The notes under the pieces are model-generated. The model did no database searches. It worked only from the letters and a program-made list of their open reading frames with translations, and had not been told where the DNA came from. The position numbers and the translations under genes are program-made. Shown one piece after another: positions 8,800 through 56,856 of a stretch of DNA of 64,000 nucleotides (position 1 is the stretch's first letter; every line of letters starts with the position of its first letter). Location: contig CAMJDZ010000001.1 in NCBI GenBank assembly GCA_946404545.1, positions 1 through 64,000 on the forward strand. Direction: 5' to 3'. Source of the stretch: an uncultured Candidatus Saccharibacteria bacterium. Lineage in GTDB: Bacteria; Patescibacteriota; Saccharimonadia; Saccharimonadales; Saccharimonadaceae.

Positions 8800-9507
8800 A
8801 TGGAAGAAGTAACTTTAAAGAGGAGAGTTATAGGCAAAACCCGGAAAAAGTGCGACGAGCGCGTCCTGAAGCTTATTCAGCAGGTAGCCGAAAAGTGTTT
8901 GCCGATTCTCGGAGGCGGTCTCGACTGGGCAGACTACGTGCTGAATTTCAACATCAAAAAGGAGAAGAAAAGACTCGATTATGACGAATGGGCGGTCCAT
9001 TACGCTCGCGACGAGAGCTACTTCCCCGAACAGTTCGGCAATGTTTACCAGACAAACTTTGTGCACATGATGATAGCCCCGCTGTGCCATTTCGACGAAG
9101 ACAATGAGCTGAAGCTCGAAAAAGACAAGTGGTGGATTGAAGTCTCTTGCCACGATGGATCGATTTCCGAATGGAGAGCAAACCCTCACGGAATGAAGGT
9201 GCCCGTTGACAAAGACGATGTTCCGAAGGAACATGCAAAGTATTCTCACGAGAGAGCCCTCGATTTGCTTGAGTTTGTCGGCGACCAGCTCATCCGCGCC
9301 ATATCTAGTTCGGACGATTTCGCCTTTGCGGTGATTCCGATCAACTTAACGACAGATAAGGTTGATCTGCAAAGTCTCAAGAATTGGAGGAGCTCCATGA
9401 TGAAGCACTGGGAAAAAACCAGAGAAGAAGCCAAGGCAAAGGCTAGCAATTCCAAAAAGACTAACATCGAGGAAAACGACGATCAGACCGGTCTCGGTGG
9501 AGCCTAA
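8800..9507 (+). CDS. Small soluble protein, paralogue array member 4
   Basis: A 235-residue soluble protein. The N-terminal part (DERVLKLIQQVAEKCLPIL, then strands LNFNIKKEK) aligns by eye with the 10215 gene (DPKLVEIFDDVARQVIPSF, then LAFTVKKT). The middle has IAPLCHFDEDNEL, as in the 7078 gene. After the helix LLEFVGDQLIRAISSSDDF it carries a further helix and a hydrophilic, low-complexity tail of about 45 residues (KTREEAKAKASNSKKTN and on). No catalytic motif stands out. Function unknown. Confidence 0.75.
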   Translation: MEEVTLKRRVIGKTRKKCDERVLKLIQQVAEKCLPILGGGLDWADYVLNFNIKKEKKRLDYDEWAVHYARDESYFPEQFGNVYQTNFVHMMIAPLCHFDEDNELKLEKDKWWIEVSCHDGSISEWRANPHGMKVPVDKDDVPKEHAKYSHERALDLLEFVGDQLIRAISSSDDFAFAVIPINLTTDKVDLQSLKNWRSSMMKHWEKTREEAKAKASNSKKTNIEENDDQTGLGGA

Positions 9508-32004: not shown

Positions 32005-32583
32005 ATGGCAGTATCTGTTACAGAGTATCGCAGAGCAGTAAAGTTGGCGCGGTGGAGATTATATTCAATGATCAAATACTGGTCATGCCATCCTTTCAAC
32101 TTCAAGGTTTACGAGAGCTATCTTAATACTATTCTGATGGCGATTCTAAATCTAAGGAAGCAGGACTTCGAAGAGCCACTCCCGAGCGATTTGTTCGGCT
32201 GGGAAAAGACCTACTCCAAGGGGATAGATTCATTCAAGGCACTCACTGATCTCTATGAAATCAAGGCGAGCGATGAAGATGTCGAAGCTCAAGAGCATGT
32301 CGAATTCTTAAAAAACGTCCTGGACAATATCAATCCAACCACGTCGCCGACAGTAAATTTCGTCTTGAATGCGGAGCTCGATTTTGTAATCGGAGACGCT
32401 ATGCTAGACGAAGAGTCGAAGGCCGCAGCCCTTATCAAGCGCAAGAAGCTTGATCCAAATTATGAAAAATTTGGAGATAATGCTGATTTCGACGAGTGGG
32501 CAAGCGAATTTGAAGCGAAGAAGAAGGAGGACCAGCTCAAAGAAGAAGACTCCTGCCCCGAAGAGGAGGCGGACCCCTATTAA
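32005..32583 (+). CDS. Small mostly helical protein, unknown function
   Basis: A 192-residue protein without TM segments. The N-terminal half is predicted helical and basic/aromatic (EYRRAVKLARWRLYSMIKYW), the middle is acidic, and the last 45 residues are a charged tail (FEAKKKEDQLKEEDSCPEE). I recognise no family and see no clear similarity to the small-paralogue array, but it uses the same promoter and SD style. It is a monocistronic cassette directly followed by the two ncRNA cassettes. Confidence 0.72.
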   Translation: MAVSVTEYRRAVKLARWRLYSMIKYWSCHPFNFKVYESYLNTILMAILNLRKQDFEEPLPSDLFGWEKTYSKGIDSFKALTDLYEIKASDEDVEAQEHVEFLKNVLDNINPTTSPTVNFVLNAELDFVIGDAMLDEESKAAALIKRKKLDPNYEKFGDNADFDEWASEFEAKKKEDQLKEEDSCPEEEADPY

Positions 32584-32658: not shown

Positions 32659-32687
32659 TTGACTTTTTTAACAAAGTGTGCTACAAT
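32659..32687 (+). promoter_or_regulatory. Promoter of ncRNA 1
   Basis: TTGACT (32659-32664), 17 bp, TACAAT (32682-32687) with TGC before it; TSS near 32694. Confidence 0.8.
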
Positions 32688-32693
32688 ATAGAC

Positions 32694-32980
32694 ACTGGTA
32701 GTCTTTTTGACCCAGAATAGATCTTTAAGGCACAGGGACAGAGATAATCTCTTTCCCGCACACAAGAATAATTGGGCAACCGCCAGATCCTTCAGGTGTA
32801 TAACAATGATGTATGACGACAAAATATAACATGGGCGAAATGTTGGCGGCGTCCGTATAAGCACAATTGTTCAACGTTCTGCTCTACGATCGATAGGTCG
32901 TAGGCCCACATAATAGGCTCCTCGGACTCTTATCTCCGGGGGTCTCCCCCCGGATTCATAAGAGCCCGGGGGCTTTTTCT
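32694..32980 (+). ncRNA. Structured non-coding RNA 1, family unknown
   Basis: About 285 nt with a strong promoter, no long frame and several hairpins: a 5'-terminal stem (CTGG/CCAG plus GTC/GAC, about 32695-32715); GGGA.AGAGA/TCTCT.TCCC (32735-32757); CCGCCA paired with distant TGGCGG (about 32780 and 32843); TGGGC with GCCCA; CTACGA/TCGTAG (about 32884-32903). The 3' end holds a nested hairpin (32927-32964) and CCCGGGGGC plus T5; CCCCCGG can pair with CCGGGGG on either side, as in an attenuator. One seven-codon frame (ATG at about 32807) follows AGGTG. I see no signatures of tmRNA, RNase P RNA, SRP RNA or 6S RNA. ORFs crossing it are shadows. Confidence 0.7.
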
Positions 32981-33008
32981 TGCACTATTTTAGAGATTAT
33001 GCTATTAT
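32980..33008 (+). promoter_or_regulatory. Promoter of ncRNA 2
   Basis: TTGCAC (32980-32985), 17 bp, TATTAT (33003-33008) with TGC before it. TSS near 33015. It begins directly at the end of the T-run of ncRNA 1. Confidence 0.7.
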
Positions 33009-33014
33009 ACGCAT

Positions 33015-33338
33015 ATTGTTTGACTTAGCCATCTTGGTATCTTTGGCTATACGAACCTCCATTAGTTCCAAACAATTGCACGTTTTAGTCCTGCCCCAGT
33101 TTGCTGGAAAAAACTGGGAGCTATCGTAAACTACAAAGTTAGCCTCTATGGAGCCTGAAAGATTTGCATAACACCTTGTCAATGTAGGCATCACGAGAGT
33201 TTTCTTCCAAAGAAGATATAAGTTTTTATTCGCTGAAAAGTTCGACCGCTGAGCACGCGACGCCGGCTCCACGTCCTTTCAATGGCTATCTTTCTAGATT
33301 TACGATTGCGGTTGTGCCCATTCGCACAGCCGCTTTTT
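33015..33338 (+). ncRNA. Structured non-coding RNA 2, family unknown
   Basis: About 325 nt between a promoter and a strong terminator, without a credible coding frame. Helices seen: ATTGTTTG (about 33015-33022) with CAAACAAT (about 33069-33076), enclosing TAGCCA/TGGCTA; CCCAGTTT/AAACTGGG (about 33095-33118); TCTTC-CAAA-GAAGA (about 33203-33216); GACG/CGTC (about 33258-33274). A long-range helix closes the 5' domain of about 60 nt. I looked for tRNA-like ends, tag frames and RNase P, SRP and 6S consensus elements and found none. It lies directly upstream of the ABC exporter genes but is separated from them by its own terminator. Confidence 0.68.
33308..33338 (+). terminator. Terminator of ncRNA 2
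   Basis: GCGG-T-TGTGC (33308-33317) pairs with GCACA-G-CCGC (33324-33333), followed by T5. The next -35 begins 2 nt later. Confidence 0.92.
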
Positions 33339-33339
33339 A

Positions 33340-33368
33340 TTGACTTTAAATTTTAATCTTTCTAAGAT
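33340..33368 (+). promoter_or_regulatory. Promoter of the ABC exporter operon
   Basis: TTGACT (33340-33345), 17 bp, TAAGAT (33363-33368). The -10 ends 7 nt before the ATG at 33376, so the mRNA should start at or next to the start codon. Confidence 0.8.
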
Positions 33369-33375
33369 AGAAGAT

Positions 33376-35121
33376 ATGTTCCGGATTCTTCGAAATTTCC
33401 GCAAAATTGATTTTCTGCTGCTTTTTGGTGGCTTTTTGTTGATTGCGGCACAGGTCGGACTTGAGCTCAAAATGCCGGATTACATGTCCGAGATAACGAA
33501 ACTCGTGACGACCGAGGACAGCGCGATGGGCGACATTTACAAAAATGGCGGCATGATGTTACTTTGCGCATTTGTGAGCTTCATCGCAAACATCGGTGCG
33601 GGTTATATTTTTGCGACAATCAGCGCCAGCCTTTCGATGAATACGCGCAAGAAATTATTTGATAAAATCGAACGGCTCGACATGGAGTCGATCAAGCAAT
33701 TCTCGACCAGTAGTTTGATTACGCGCACGACGAATGATATTACGCAGATTCAAATGTTTGTCGCGATGGGCGCACAGATGTTAATTCGCGCGCCGATGTT
33801 TGCGATTTGGGCGATTTCAAAAATGGCCGGCAAAAGCTGGCAGTGGAGTACGATTACCGCGATTGCAGTCGTGATTTTGCTCGCGACGATTATTTCGATT
33901 ATGGCCGTCGTGATTCCGCGCTTCAAGCTCATCCAGAAATTGACCGACCGCATCAACGGAATCTCGCGCGAGAATCTCAAAGGCATTCGTGTTGTGCGCG
34001 CATTTAACGCCGAAAAATATCAGGAAAAGAAATTTGCAAAAGCCAACGGCGAGCTGACCGACATGCAAATTTTCAACGGCCGCATGATGTCGATTATGTC
34101 GCCGACAATGTATTTGATTATGAATGGCATCACGCTCGCAATTTACATTTCTGGCGCTTACATTATTGCGAACGCCGCCGGGCTTGAACGCCTGACTTTG
34201 TTTAGCGACATGATTGTGTTCTCAACCTACGCGATGCACGTGATTATGAGCTTCCTATTTGTCGCAATTACTTTGATGATTTTGCCGCGCGCGCAGGTCT
34301 CGGCAAATCGTATTAATGAAGTGCTTGCAACAAAAATCAATATTCGCGACGGCGAGTTTGATGATAAAACCGCCGAGCGCGGCACGGTTGAATTCCGCAA
34401 CGTTTCGTTTAAATATCCTGATGCCGAAGAATACTTGTTGCGCGACATTTCTTTCAAAGCCAACCCGGGCGAAACGGTCGCATTTATTGGCTCGACTGGC
34501 TCTGGCAAGTCAACGCTCATCAATCTCGTTCCGCGTTTCTATGACGCGACGGACGGCGAGGTTTATGTCGATGGCGTAAATGTACGCGACTACAAAATGA
34601 GTGCACTATATAATCGACTTGGCTACGTTTCGCAGAAGGCCGTGATTTTTAACGGCAGCGTGGCCGATAACATCGCCTACGGCGGCAAAAAGGATGACAA
34701 AAAAATCAAGGACGCCGCAAAGACTGCACAGGCAAAATCTTTCATTGAAAAATTGCCGAAGAAATACCAGGAGCACATTGCGGCGGGCGGTACGAATATT
34801 TCTGGCGGCCAAAAACAACGCCTCGCCATCGCACGCGCAATTGCACGTGATCCGGAAATCTATATTTTCGACGACAGCTTCTCTGCCCTCGATTACAAAA
34901 CCGACGCGGCTTTGCGCAAAGCGCTCAAAGAAAAGACCGGCGACGCCACTTGTTTAATCGTCGCGCAGCGCATCGGCACCATCATGCACGCCGACAAAAT
35001 CATCGTACTCGACGAAGGTCGCTGCGTTGGCATGGGCACCCATAAAGAACTTCTGAAATCCTGCAAAGTTTATAAACAAATTGCGCTTTCGCAATTGTCG
35101 CCGGAGGAACTCAATGTTTAA
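33376..35121 (+). CDS. ABC exporter half-transporter, degenerate-site subunit
   Basis: A 581-residue protein with six TM segments (about 1-310) and a nucleotide-binding domain. Walker A is GSTGSGKST, the signature is ISGGQ, and Walker B is YIFDDSFSALD, where Asp replaces the catalytic Glu. The ATG at 33376 is chosen because the promoter covers the longer frame from 33340. It overlaps the next exporter gene by 8 nt. A non-catalytic Walker B in one of two subunits is typical of heterodimeric exporters such as TM287/288 or LmrCD. Substrate unknown; drugs, lipids or peptides are possible. Confidence 0.93.
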   Translation: MFRILRNFRKIDFLLLFGGFLLIAAQVGLELKMPDYMSEITKLVTTEDSAMGDIYKNGGMMLLCAFVSFIANIGAGYIFATISASLSMNTRKKLFDKIERLDMESIKQFSTSSLITRTTNDITQIQMFVAMGAQMLIRAPMFAIWAISKMAGKSWQWSTITAIAVVILLATIISIMAVVIPRFKLIQKLTDRINGISRENLKGIRVVRAFNAEKYQEKKFAKANGELTDMQIFNGRMMSIMSPTMYLIMNGITLAIYISGAYIIANAAGLERLTLFSDMIVFSTYAMHVIMSFLFVAITLMILPRAQVSANRINEVLATKINIRDGEFDDKTAERGTVEFRNVSFKYPDAEEYLLRDISFKANPGETVAFIGSTGSGKSTLINLVPRFYDATDGEVYVDGVNVRDYKMSALYNRLGYVSQKAVIFNGSVADNIAYGGKKDDKKIKDAAKTAQAKSFIEKLPKKYQEHIAAGGTNISGGQKQRLAIARAIARDPEIYIFDDSFSALDYKTDAALRKALKEKTGDATCLIVAQRIGTIMHADKIIVLDEGRCVGMGTHKELLKSCKVYKQIALSQLSPEELNV

Positions 35122-36913
35122 CGGCGGGAAAGGCGGTCGCGGTAACGCACCGGAAAAAAGCAAAAACTTCGGCGCAGCAATTAAGCGTTTGTTTGGCGAG
35201 CTTGGACATTTACGCATTCTCGTAATTATTAGCGTAGTCTTTGCAATTGCCGGCGCAATCTGCACGATTGTTGCGCCGAATCGCATTGCCGATTTGACGG
35301 ACGAAATTACGATGGGTCTCGTACCGGGCGGCAACATCAACATGGATGCCATTTGGGCAATTGGCACTTTCATGATTATCCTCTATGTCGTCGCCGGCCT
35401 GCTTTCGTTTAGTGGTGGCGTTTTAATGACGCAAGTTTCAAATATCTTCGCACGCAATTTACGCAAACGCATTTCCGAAAAGATTAATCGTTTGCCACTG
35501 AATTACTTCGATCGCCATCAGACCGGCGACATTCTCTCGCGCATCACGAACGATGTCGATACGGTCGCAATGAGTCTCAGCAACTCACTTTCGACGATTG
35601 TGAGCGAAACGGTTTTGATGTTCGGTGTGCTCATTATGATGTTCATTACGAACTGGCAGTTGGCACTCGTCGCCGTCGTCGCGAGCGTGCTCGGCTTTGT
35701 TGGCATGGGCGTGATTCTTGGCAAATCACAAAAGTATTTCTCGATGCGTCAGACTGAGCTCGGCAAGCTCAATGCACACATTGAAGAAATCTATTCCGGC
35801 TTGAACGTCGTGCGTGCATACAATGGTAAGGCCAGCAGCGACGAGAAATTCGATAAACTCAACAGGCGCGTCTATATCGCCAACCAACGCAGCCAATTCC
35901 TGGGCGGTTTGATGCACCCAATCATGGCCTTTATTGGCAACTTTGGCTACGTCGCCGTCTGTGTGATGGGCGCAATTCTTGCGACCCAAAACGTCATCAG
36001 CTTTGGCGTTATCGTCGCATTCATTACTTACGTGCGCCTATTTACTTCCCCACTCTCACGCATCGCGCAATCAATGTCCAACTTGCAGTCCGCCGCCGCC
36101 GCAAGCGAGCGCGTGTTCGAATTCGTCGACGAAAAAGAAATGACGGACGAATCTGAAAAAGCAACGAAAATTAACAAAGATAAAATTCGTGGCAATATTG
36201 AATTCGACAATGTGCGCTTTGGCTACGACAAAGACAAGACGATCATTAAGGGCTTTTCGGCAAAGGCAAAAGCCGGCCAGAAGATTGCTATCGTTGGCCC
36301 GACCGGCGCCGGCAAAACTACAATCGTCAACTTGCTGATGAAATTCTACGACATTAATTCTGGCAAGATTTTGATCGACGGGATTCCGACTAGCGAAATG
36401 AAACGCGAAGAAATTCATTCGCTCTTCACGATGGTGCTGCAGGACACTTGGCTCTTTGCCGGGACGCTCCGCGATAACATTTTGTACAACCGCACCAAGG
36501 TGAGCGACGAGAAAATTATGGAAATTTGCGACACGGTCGGACTTACGCATTTTGTCAAAACTTTGCCGCACGGACTTGATACTGAAATCGCCGAAAACGA
36601 TGCGATTTCGGCCGGCCAAAAGCAGCTCATCACGATTGCGCGCGGCATGGTCGAAGACGCACCATTCCTCATTCTTGACGAAGCAACTTCAAACGTCGAT
36701 ACGCGCACTGAGGAACTCGTCCAAAAAGCCATGGACAAACTCGCCGAGGGCCGCACTTCGTTCATTATCGCGCACCGCTTGTCGACCATTAAAAATGCTG
36801 ACTTAATTCTCGTGATGAACGAAGGCAATATTATCGAATCCGGCAACCACAAGCAACTCATCGCCAAAAATGGCTTCTATGCCGAGCTTTATAACTCGCA
36901 ATTCATCTTATAA
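35114..36913 (+). CDS. ABC exporter half-transporter, catalytic subunit
   Basis: A 599-residue partner of the previous gene: a charged N-terminus of about 20 residues, six TM segments, then an NBD with Walker A GPTGAGKTT, signature ISAGQ (second Gly to Ala), and Walker B FLILDEATSNVDTR with the catalytic Glu. The start is ATG at 35114 (MFNGGKGGRG), with GGAGG upstream; it overlaps the 33376 gene (TAA at 35119-35121), so translation is coupled. Together they should form one heterodimer with one active ATP site, formed by the first subunit's good signature and this subunit's Walker motifs. Confidence 0.93.
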   Translation: MFNGGKGGRGNAPEKSKNFGAAIKRLFGELGHLRILVIISVVFAIAGAICTIVAPNRIADLTDEITMGLVPGGNINMDAIWAIGTFMIILYVVAGLLSFSGGVLMTQVSNIFARNLRKRISEKINRLPLNYFDRHQTGDILSRITNDVDTVAMSLSNSLSTIVSETVLMFGVLIMMFITNWQLALVAVVASVLGFVGMGVILGKSQKYFSMRQTELGKLNAHIEEIYSGLNVVRAYNGKASSDEKFDKLNRRVYIANQRSQFLGGLMHPIMAFIGNFGYVAVCVMGAILATQNVISFGVIVAFITYVRLFTSPLSRIAQSMSNLQSAAAASERVFEFVDEKEMTDESEKATKINKDKIRGNIEFDNVRFGYDKDKTIIKGFSAKAKAGQKIAIVGPTGAGKTTIVNLLMKFYDINSGKILIDGIPTSEMKREEIHSLFTMVLQDTWLFAGTLRDNILYNRTKVSDEKIMEICDTVGLTHFVKTLPHGLDTEIAENDAISAGQKQLITIARGMVEDAPFLILDEATSNVDTRTEELVQKAMDKLAEGRTSFIIAHRLSTIKNADLILVMNEGNIIESGNHKQLIAKNGFYAELYNSQFIL

Positions 36914-53535: not shown

Positions 53536-56500
53536 TTGGGAAACAAAAACTGCGAAGAAAGAGTTGAGAAAATAAAAAGACTCAAGAAATCTGCGACTTT
53601 TTCTAATGCCGCAAAACGGCTCGTATTTTGCGGGCTTTTTGGTGTTTTCGTCGCCGCAGGTATCCTTGGGTATTCTTTCTTCGCTTCCGCCCTCGTCGAA
53701 CCAGTTCGTAGCGTTGAGACTACATCGAATAATTTGAGCTTTGAGAACGGCGATGCTGGCGCTTGGAAAATCACCAAGAGCGCCAAGTGGGTCGCGCGCG
53801 GCAAAGCCAGGATTACAATTGAAGCCGACTCGATAGCAAAAGACGACGAGCGCCCGAAGGACATTTTGCTCGTGCTCGACACTTCCGGCTCGATGATTGG
53901 CCCGCGCCTCACGCAGGCCAAAGAGGACATTCAAAACCTCGTGACGACTTTGATGGCCGAAAACAATGCGCGCTTTGGTCTAGTGACTTTCAACTCGAGC
54001 GCAACGCTCGTTCGAGACCTAACCGACAATCGCCAAGCAATCATTGACGATATCGCGGGCATTAGCGTTTATGGCCAGACGAATTATTACCAGGCCATCC
54101 TCAATATGGAGCATATTTTCGAGAACTACGACTTCACCGCTGGCCGCCGCCCGATTGTGCTCTTTATGACCGATGGCGATCCGAATATTGATGCGCCTTT
54201 GCAGGTCCCTGAATATCAGGTCTTCAAGTCGCTATATCCGGAAGTTTCCGTGCGTGGCATCCAGTACGAAGTCGGCGAGGAAATCCGCCCAAGCATCAAG
54301 GACGTCACTGATTCGCAATGGACCGCAGACATCGACGCGCTGCGCGACGTGCTCTGGCGCGCAATTGCCGAGGATTCTTATATTTACGACGAATTCACAG
54401 TGACTGATTTTATCGACGACACTTACTACACGATTGATTCCGAAGCAAACATCAGCTCGACGCTCGGCACGTATAGCCTCGACTACGACGGCACGACACC
54501 AAAAGTCACCTGGAATCTTGGCGGAGTTTATCATAGCGGCACAAAAGAAAAGCTTGAGATTGACGTCAAGATTCGCGACCAGTATTACGACGAAGACGAC
54601 GGGCGCTACCCGACCAACAAACACATCGACATTCAGTCTGTTTTACACGATGCGCCGAACGAAAACGTCACGAGCAACAAGACACCAATCTTAAAACTCA
54701 AGTATGAAGTTGTTATGAATAACAACGTCCCGGATTCTAGTTGTACTGCGCATATTTCCTCAGAAAAACATGTCGTCTTTGACCCAGTCGACATGGAATA
54801 CACGACCGGCGAATGGTGCGGCGACTTCTCGACGCACGGTTGGGATTTGGGCGACGACAGCATCGTGCGCATTGGTTCCGATTACTTCGTGATGCCAGAA
54901 CAGGACGTTTCACTAAAAGCAGTTTGGCGCAAAACCACGATCGAAAAATCAATGGCGGGCGAGCCACAAGGAACGCGCGCTGCATACCTGCGCAACGGCG
55001 AATACGTCAACCTTCTCATGAAAAATTTGGTTCCGGGCGCAAACGCAACGAGCCATTTCCTCGATCACGATACGACTATCAAGGCCTTTAAGCGTGCCTT
55101 GTCGAAGCCGGATGATTTCGAGACCAGACAAAAGGTTCTCTTGTCGCAGGAGAGCTCGGAGTTCCCGATTTACGCCTGGCTCGGAAATGACGGTGAAACG
55201 ATTTACTATTGGACCGACACCGACGATATTTATATGAGCGGTCACTCAAACAGCTTCTTTGAAGCCTTTGATGAAATCGAGGATGTTTCCGGCCTCGCCG
55301 ACTTTGATACGTCCCGCGTCGAGTCGCTCGGCTGGATGTTTAAGGGCTGCGACAAGCTAACCGACATCAGCCCGATGAGCGACTGGTACTTGCCGAAACT
55401 CAACGAATTGACTGGTATCTTCGAAGGTGCCTCATCGCTCGAAAATATCGACGCGCTGAGCAGCTGGCGCACTCCGGAGCTCAAATACGCCGACACATTA
55501 TTCTTTAAGGCCACAAACCTCACCTCAATTGCCGGTATGCTCGATTGGGGCGTAACGAAAGTCACGATTATCCGAGATATGCTACGCGATGCATCGAGCC
55601 TAACGAGCTTGCATGGTCTAGAAAATTGGGACGCCTCCCATATTACTGACGCCAACAACGCCATGTGGGGCTGCCACAGCCTGACCGATATTTCGGCGCT
55701 CGCAAACTGGCAAACCAACAGCCTGACGACCATGGAATATATGTTAAAGGATACTTATGTTCTGGAAAATCTTGCGCCGCTCGCCGGCTGGGACGTGAGC
55801 AACGTGACCGACTTTGAAGGCGTATTCTCGTTCGCCGAAGCCATCCCTAATCTGGATGCACTGGCAAACTGGAACGTGAGTAAGGGCGAAAACTTCAATG
55901 GCATGTTCGACAATACCTATGCCCTCACCGATATCTCCGGCCTCGCCAATTGGAGACCGAATAACGCAAAGACAATGTTTGGCATGTTCTTTAATGCGCG
56001 AGCGCTCGAAAGTGCCGACGGTCTGGAAAACTGGGAAATCGACGATGTAACCACGCTCGGAAACTTCTTTATGAACTGCTATAAGCTCAACGATATTTCT
56101 GCGCTCGCTAACTGGGCGGATCATCTCGATAATGTCGAGACGATTAGCGGCTTCTTCTCTGACGACAGAGTCCTCGAAGACATTTCACCGATCACAGATT
56201 GGGTGATGCCAAAAGTCACCGACATGAGTGCTACTTTCCGCGGCATGAAGGCGGTCACGAGTTACGCGCCGCTCGCCGATTGGGACACGAGCAAGGTAAC
56301 GACGATGGCCGAGATGTTTGGCTGGTCAAATATCGACGACCTTGAGGCGCTCAGAAACTGGGATGTCAGCAAGGTCGAAAACATGAAGTTCCTCTTCCAT
56401 AACTGCCCTGGGATTACGTCTTTGGAGCCAATCGCAAATTGGAATGTCGTGAGCGTCAAGGATATTAACGGCATCTTCCGCTATCTCCAGTATGTCACCT

Positions 56501-56856
56501 CGCTCGAGCCGATGCGTAATTGGGGCCCGAAGCTCAGTAATCATCTCGTCGACATCCAGTATGCCTTTGAGGGCATGATGGGCGTCACCGATATCTCGCC
56601 ACTTAGCACCTGGGATGTCTCGAATGTTACGAATATGGCCGGCGCGCTTGGCGGCATTCTGATGACCAACCTAGACGCGATTGGTGACTGGGATGTGAGT
56701 AAAGTAACGGATATGCATGAGCTGTTCTGCTACTGCTACAACCTAACCGACGCCTCGGCAATCGAAGACTGGAATGTTGGCGGTCGCGAGGTAAATATGG
56801 AAGCAACCTTCTTTGATACCGCGCTTACAAGCTATCCTGCCTGGTATCAAGATTAA
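53536..56856 (+). CDS. vWA/InlB-like/DUF285 surface protein
   Basis: About 1106 residues. The frame is open from 53494, but that ATG coincides with the -35 box, so the start must lie later; the first in-frame start codon after the TSS is TTG at 53536, without a clear SD (start uncertain). N-terminal hydrophobic segment (about 29-51, possible cut after FASA); vWA domain with DTSGS (115-119), GQTNYY and FMTDGDP (intact MIDAS); a beta domain with the GTKEKLEIDVKI block; an InlB-like repeat that is shorter and more divergent, ending VMPEQDVSLKAVW; then about 20 DUF285 repeats. It ends SYPAWYQD. Same family as 23247 and 39439. Confidence 0.88.
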   Translation: MGNKNCEERVEKIKRLKKSATFSNAAKRLVFCGLFGVFVAAGILGYSFFASALVEPVRSVETTSNNLSFENGDAGAWKITKSAKWVARGKARITIEADSIAKDDERPKDILLVLDTSGSMIGPRLTQAKEDIQNLVTTLMAENNARFGLVTFNSSATLVRDLTDNRQAIIDDIAGISVYGQTNYYQAILNMEHIFENYDFTAGRRPIVLFMTDGDPNIDAPLQVPEYQVFKSLYPEVSVRGIQYEVGEEIRPSIKDVTDSQWTADIDALRDVLWRAIAEDSYIYDEFTVTDFIDDTYYTIDSEANISSTLGTYSLDYDGTTPKVTWNLGGVYHSGTKEKLEIDVKIRDQYYDEDDGRYPTNKHIDIQSVLHDAPNENVTSNKTPILKLKYEVVMNNNVPDSSCTAHISSEKHVVFDPVDMEYTTGEWCGDFSTHGWDLGDDSIVRIGSDYFVMPEQDVSLKAVWRKTTIEKSMAGEPQGTRAAYLRNGEYVNLLMKNLVPGANATSHFLDHDTTIKAFKRALSKPDDFETRQKVLLSQESSEFPIYAWLGNDGETIYYWTDTDDIYMSGHSNSFFEAFDEIEDVSGLADFDTSRVESLGWMFKGCDKLTDISPMSDWYLPKLNELTGIFEGASSLENIDALSSWRTPELKYADTLFFKATNLTSIAGMLDWGVTKVTIIRDMLRDASSLTSLHGLENWDASHITDANNAMWGCHSLTDISALANWQTNSLTTMEYMLKDTYVLENLAPLAGWDVSNVTDFEGVFSFAEAIPNLDALANWNVSKGENFNGMFDNTYALTDISGLANWRPNNAKTMFGMFFNARALESADGLENWEIDDVTTLGNFFMNCYKLNDISALANWADHLDNVETISGFFSDDRVLEDISPITDWVMPKVTDMSATFRGMKAVTSYAPLADWDTSKVTTMAEMFGWSNIDDLEALRNWDVSKVENMKFLFHNCPGITSLEPIANWNVVSVKDINGIFRYLQYVTSLEPMRNWGPKLSNHLVDIQYAFEGMMGVTDISPLSTWDVSNVTNMAGALGGILMTNLDAIGDWDVSKVTDMHELFCYCYNLTDASAIEDWNVGGREVNMEATFFDTALTSYPAWYQD

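Follow-up and report, generated by a model that had tools for sequence, protein, structure and literature searches.

In alphaproteobacteria, the small RNAs alpha-r14/NfeR1 and the 'cuckoo' sRNAs cover the Shine-Dalgarno (SD) sequence of mRNAs and thereby repress translation, ntrB being repressed by NfeR1/alpha-r14 (PMC10746234). In Listeria, LhrC1-5 are multicopy sRNAs of 111-114 nt, present as nearly identical copies (PMC4132741). The csRNAs of Streptococcus pneumoniae also occur in several copies, as independent short transcripts with CU-rich sites that block SDs. The large ornate RNAs OLE, GOLLD, ROOL and HEARO are long and highly folded, lack a coding frame and are of unknown biochemistry. 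For Saccharibacteria, no description of small regulatory RNAs was found in the open-access literature searched, the coverage of which was incomplete.

The locus analysed here belongs to an uncultured Candidatus Saccharibacteria bacterium (GCA_946404545.1, contig CAMJDZ010000001.1, positions 1 to 64,000 of the forward strand; this whole 64-kb stretch is hereafter named the window) and contains two tandem units, compared below with their counterparts in the genus. They resemble alpha-r14/NfeR1 and the cuckoo RNAs in the presence of a conserved anti-SD motif in unpaired regions, between stems that are highly different in sequence (PMC10746234). However, those RNAs consist of three hairpins with CCUCCUCCC in each loop, whereas the units of this genus are 167-429 nt long (median 299, n=45), form long-range helices and carry pieces of CACCUCCUUUC. 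Neither CCUCCUCCC nor CCTCCTCCC was present in any of the units (absent from 45/45), and membership in this group is not met (other phylum, no Rfam match). They resemble LhrC1-5 in being multicopy, with every copy a short transcript of its own (inferred for the units) and with CU-rich sites that block SDs in LhrC and would do so here (PMC4132741). In contrast to the near-identical 111-114 nt LhrC copies, the units are large and unlike each other within a locus; LhrC membership is not met either, in the absence of such copies and of an Rfam match. Like the large ornate RNAs, the units are long, highly folded and without a coding frame. However, they lack an Rfam match at gathering score, and it is their architecture and short motifs that are conserved, not their sequence. 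The reading that we favour, with moderate confidence (probability about 0.55 for the reading as a whole), is that they are tandem trans-acting sRNAs that would block ribosome-binding sites, and that they form a fast-diverging, tandemly duplicated RNA family, so far restricted to one Saccharibacteria genus. Transcription, action in trans and translational repression are inferred.

Organization of the locus

Two complete promoter-RNA-terminator units are located on the + strand of the window, at 32659-32979 and 32980-33338, between a 192-aa ORF (32005-32583) and an ABC exporter half-transporter (33376..35121, +) that is the conserved downstream neighbour. The earlier note, made from the sequence alone, had proposed two structured RNAs here, each with a precise promoter and a terminator. 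The RNA1 promoter (32659..32687, +; TTGACT-17-TACAAT with an extended -10 TG) was a strong match in the promoter scan, is 29/29 identical in the related genome G008, and belongs to a sequence type found repeatedly across the genus. The RNA1 gene (win_1; 32688..32979, +; about 291 nt, terminator included) ends in an intrinsic terminator at about 32916..32979 (+), formed by a long GC hairpin plus T5. The RNA2 promoter (32980..33008, +; TTGCAC-17-TATTAT with an extended -10, TGC) was recognized by eye; its -35 box is weak (3/6 matches) and it was absent from the promoter scanner output. The RNA2 gene (win_2; 33009..33338, +; about 330 nt, terminator included) finishes with an intrinsic terminator (33308..33338, +). 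The claim of one terminator per unit was thus confirmed, as was the first promoter, whereas the second is present, if weaker than implied. A third promoter (33340..33368, +; TTGACT-17-TAAGAT), the exporter's own, lies directly after the RNA2 terminator, several relatives being arranged alike. Therefore, both RNAs are separate units.

An unlikely alternative is a structured cis-acting 5' leader, riboswitch- or attenuator-like, that would control the ABC exporter through a regulated terminator; RNA2 and, in relatives, the single units would be such leaders. Their location immediately before the exporter, and the terminator lying between the two, fit this possibility. Against it, a promoter of the exporter's own follows the terminator at once, both in the window and in several relatives, and RNA1 stops at its own upstream terminator, after which a new promoter follows, up to five units being placed serially. 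Moreover, a ligand aptamer would retain a core sequence, whereas the units diverge past alignment.

Some additional features of the region were observed. Conservation of the promoter extends genus-wide beyond the two hexamers, the spacer being also kept as about TTGACTTTTTTnnCAAAGTGTGCTATAAT upstream of many different genes (32659-32687 in the window, loci L003-L020). The 192-aa gene (32005-32583, +) is a divergence island, with 77.5% nucleotide identity and many gaps with respect to G008, the flanks being 96-98% identical; it is present in only 2/45 genomes of the genus, and neither a Pfam nor an NCBIfam match was obtained for it. The ABC exporter (33376-36913) appears to have been acquired by horizontal transfer: a search of 24 further families belonging to the order did not retrieve it (E<=1e-80), whereas proteins 64-68% identical to it occur in gut Bacilli/Clostridia MAGs. 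Elsewhere in the window, positions 53866-56856 (+) encode a large protein, probably located at the surface, in which a von Willebrand A domain is combined with six DUF285 stretches of the Mycoplasma type.

Coding capacity, selection and comparison with known RNA classes

No ORF with a ribosome-binding site was found in RNA1 or RNA2 on either strand. A single further genome of the genus, G008, contains the locus with 95% identity, and single-base indels between the window and G008 break every reading frame in both RNA1 and RNA2; the previous claim that no credible coding frame exists was thus upheld. Only 4/242 positions of the RNA1 body were substituted in this comparison, versus 20/116 synonymous sites of the adjacent membrane-protein gene (Fisher p = 1.5e-7; the synonymous total of about 116 is approximate). 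Outside its 5' domain, 4/118 positions of RNA2 differed (p = 4.5e-4). The 5' domain itself is variable (7/65), with 33045-33060, through ACCUCC, unchanged. The G008 contig stops inside RNA2, and the last part of this RNA is therefore outside the comparison. Given the few substitutions relative to synonymous sites and the frame-breaking indels, purifying selection acts on RNA1 and on most of that part of RNA2 for which G008 sequence is available, and neither codes for protein. That both units are real structured non-coding RNA genes is very likely; transcript data are lacking, and their transcription is inferred.

It could be argued that the slot is hypervariable and its cargo protein-coding, the units being either mRNAs of short peptides that evolve fast or genes in decay. 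In favour of this, a genuine gene for a small membrane protein, with a good ribosome-binding site, does occupy the slot in some relatives, and the neighbouring 192-aa gene is hypervariable. Against it, SDs on the RNA strand are depleted rather than enriched (GGAGG, 4 vs 7 expected), the mini-ORFs are few and not conserved between related units, and indels occur in all frames with respect to G008 though RNA1 is otherwise conserved. We consider this explanation very unlikely, and RNA-strand mini-ORFs were rejected as candidates. Coding on the reverse strand, where an anti-SD reads as an SD, was also rejected: the 75 sites gave just 26 combinations with a start codon within 3-10 nt, and most of the frames were tiny.

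The earlier note had excluded tmRNA, RNase P, SRP and 6S RNA by eye and had proposed an Rfam search together with a comparison of syntenic relatives. In the Rfam search no match at gathering score was obtained for RNA1 or RNA2, and at lax E-values only terminator hairpins were matched; the loci of 20 relatives gave no match except tRNA. RNase P RNA, tmRNA and 6S RNA, which have a similar length range, were the housekeeping candidates. RNase P RNA is missing from the assembly of the window genome (G000), most likely as a result of an assembly gap, and this made RNA1 and RNA2 brief candidates. This identity was rejected, since a canonical gene (type A, about 240 bits with the RF00010 model) is located elsewhere in 42/45 genomes of the genus, the window giving no match. 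tmRNA was rejected as well: neither RF00023 nor ARAGORN gave a match at the locus, and the true tmRNA is located elsewhere (G000:C14). No Rfam SRP model matched RNA1 or RNA2 at gathering score. RF00013 gave no 6S RNA match; this model was positive in only 5/14 control genomes, and a divergent 6S RNA is not excluded by this result alone. The exclusion by eye was thus supported by Rfam, with tmRNA at another locus of this genome, RNase P RNA at another locus in relatives, and a divergent 6S RNA still possible.

Tandem units and recurring architecture in the genus

The slot preceding the same ABC exporter was compared in 45 genomes of the genus, which comprises UBA2834-type Saccharibacteria (records including UBA2834, UBA3304, UBA4387 and rumen/gut MAGs). 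Between one and five tandem units were found in 28 of them (27 including the window, plus G008), 45 units in total, with borders set by hand; coming from a single genus, they do not represent independent samples. Exporter orthologues occur in 43/45 genomes. The comparison with syntenic relatives thus revealed the same arrangement, a genus-wide tandem family that the earlier note had missed. The longest arrays, those of G064 and G068 (L061, L063), consist of four and five different units in series; these non-coding stretches measure about 1.2-1.6 kb, the genomes themselves 0.7-0.9 Mb. In place of units, the slot of one subclade (L040, L042-L045, L055) contains a gene for a small membrane protein with an acidic tail; this gene has a strong ribosome-binding site and its own promoter and terminator. 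The exporter is present without RNA units in some relatives; it was consequently rejected as a strict partner of the units, and the link between the two may be only positional.

Beyond close relatives, unit sequences are mostly unalignable between subclades, and what unites the family is synteny, architecture and the anti-SD motif, not sequence. This is why such genes are overlooked by sequence and covariance searches: a covariance model (R1) built from three unit-1 RNAs found only its own three loci in the genus, and paralogues elsewhere are neither shown nor excluded. No sequence similar to the units was found in phage and viral collections.

Many compensatory-looking helices had been described for both RNAs, a claim that holds only in part, compensation being invisible in one sequence. 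The fold z-scores of RNA1 and RNA2 were -5.1 and -3.4, respectively, and -2.1 and -1.5 after removal of the terminators. The single-sequence fold signal thus comes mostly from the terminators, and the evidence for structure rests on the relatives. The mean fold z over the units was -4.4, and perfect Watson-Crick helices of >=10 bp spanning >=100 nt were found in 11/45 units, as compared with 1.3% of shuffled sequences. In RNA2-like and single units, long-range helices lie at similar relative positions and are formed by unrelated sequences: GATTCTGTAGA/TCTACAGAATC in G012, GACTTCGGAC/GTCCGAAGTC in G065, CTACGACGGTG/CACCGTCGTAG in G006, CGATAGTGGCCAA/TTGGCCACTATCG in G022 and ATCGTAAA/TTTACGAT in the RNA2 of the window (33123-33130 / 33299-33306). 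The complete helix closing the core of RNA2 is formed by AUCGUAAACUACAAAGUUAGCC (33123..33144, +) and GGCUAUCUUUCUAGAUUUACGAU (33284..33306, +). The 5' domain of RNA2 (33015..33076, +) consists of a stem, AUUGUUUG/CAAACAAU, around a hairpin together with the first of the two anti-SD sites; this stem pair is retained as a wobble in G008, and analogous stems of other sequence were found in G012, G033 and G026.

Another recurring element was observed in the unit-1 RNAs of eight genomes, where a conserved AUUACCY (AUUACUC in one) is placed, in 8/8 cases, as a 3' bulge that separates two helices. All nine pair positions examined in the flanking helices vary, with 2-4 standard pair types each. Since each helix was read from the fold of the sequence that contains it, counting pair types does not by itself constitute proof; the stronger structural argument is the topology that these units share around a constant AUUACCY. 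The three chance occurrences of AUUACCY in other units lack the bulge fold. The fold z-scores of the AUUACCY units were mostly -1.6 to -4.1, with the exception of G026 (0.1), and the RNA1 of the window does not contain this motif. The description 'two tandem structured ncRNAs of unknown family' thus held, on the basis of the absence of an Rfam match, the selection on RNA1 and the architecture that recurs in relatives.

Ribosomal-tail motifs and proposed mode of action

All 4096 hexamers were counted in the unit bodies without terminators and compared with dinucleotide shuffles. CTCCTT, TCCTTT, ACCTCC, CACCTC, CCTTTC and CCTCCT occupied ranks 1, 2, 3, 5, 7 and 8 of the enrichment. These six are consecutive windows of CACCUCCUUUC, the canonical 3' tail of bacterial 16S rRNA (anti-SD). 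These motifs, which the earlier note did not report, are enriched specifically on the RNA strand: a set of four hexamers occurred 71 times versus about 11 expected, and 4 times on the antisense strand, with a density of 6.7/kb on the RNA strand, 0.38 on the opposite strand and 0.1-0.9 in controls. No motif excess was observed in coding regions, in the whole window or in other loci of the genus. They are also accessible, with an unpaired probability of 0.59, versus 0.43 overall and 0.47 for other pyrimidine hexamers. The window genome does use SDs, as GGAGG precedes 10 ORFs of the window versus 0.3 expected. The 16S tail pattern itself was found in 0/45 genomes of the genus, probably since the 16S genes are unassembled or otherwise missing from the sequences searched.

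Two such sites are present in the RNA2 of the window. Site 1 (33055..33060, +) is ACCUCC (GAACCUCCAUUAG), with a mean unpaired probability of 0.67, and remains unchanged in G008 amid an otherwise variable domain; site 2 (33274..33280, +) is UCCUUUC, a piece of the 16S tail with a mean unpaired probability of 0.72. RNA1 contains no exact anti-SD hexamer, only a degenerate CU site, AUCCUUCAGG (32787..32796, +), at the place where the unit 1 of relatives has (C/U)UCCUUUCA; this homology was established by eye and is weak. Seven of the 45 units lack CCTCC, CTCCTT and TCCTTTC altogether.

Protein sponges provide another possible, albeit unlikely, explanation: an RNA-binding protein would recognize the CU-rich motifs and be titrated by the tandem RNAs, with a logic like that of CsrB/RsmZ, instead of acting as antisense. 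The presence of several motif copies per RNA and several RNAs per locus fits, and the LhrC authors raise the same analogy (PMC4132741). However, the enrichment follows the exact order of the 16S tail, including the purine-containing CACCTC/ACCTCC, and not general pyrimidine runs (pyrimidine hexamers are 4.6-fold enriched inside the tail and only 1.3-fold outside), and no known CU-binding regulator was identified in the analysis.

In the antisense reading that we favour, each RNA would be a compact helix scaffold, often closed by a long-range helix, that exposes short unpaired pieces of the 16S rRNA 3' tail, CACCUCCUUUC. These pieces would pair in trans with the SD sequences of mRNAs and ribosome binding would be blocked. 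The bases flanking the anti-SD pieces would give the choice of target, and the range of targets would be broadened or tuned by tandem copies that differ in these bases. That RNA1 acts like RNA2 is inferred and constitutes the weakest point, given that only a degenerate site is present in RNA1. Predicted pairing of RNA2 site 1 with the start regions of the window was no better than that of flank-shuffled controls, and no target is shown, the search being limited to the 64-kb window. The best duplex of this site was formed with the gene at 8800-9507 (-24.1 kcal/mol) and spans both the SD and the start codon; 143/1000 flank shuffles were as good.

The absence of a specific target in the window would also fit a ribosome-directed RNA, in which the copies of the 16S tail act globally, without chosen targets, either by sequestering SD-bearing mRNAs or by helping idle ribosomes. 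The strict identity to the 16S tail next to hypervariable flanks supports such a role. We regard it as improbable, however: the pieces are short and there is often one per RNA, and a global blocker would require extreme abundance.

A bolder version of the trans-acting reading, which we consider somewhat less likely than not, is that the units represent an undescribed genus-wide family of multi-copy ribosomal-tail mimics reprogramming translation in a host-dependent, reduced bacterium. The same joint claim includes the premise that their sequence would be nearly free to drift while selection would retain the folding architecture and the exposed 16S rRNA 3' tail copies. If confirmed, the favoured reading would add another independent case of tandem RNAs borrowing the mRNA-recognition sequence of the ribosome, and would offer a concrete entry to gene control in reduced, probably epibiotic bacteria.

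Behind the anti-SD pieces, the second strongest conserved element is UUGUUCA. In RNA1 it is located at 32867..32873 (+), position 180 of the window unit, and it is common to RNA1 and five unit-1 RNAs at a similar position (159-202 in unit-1 RNAs).
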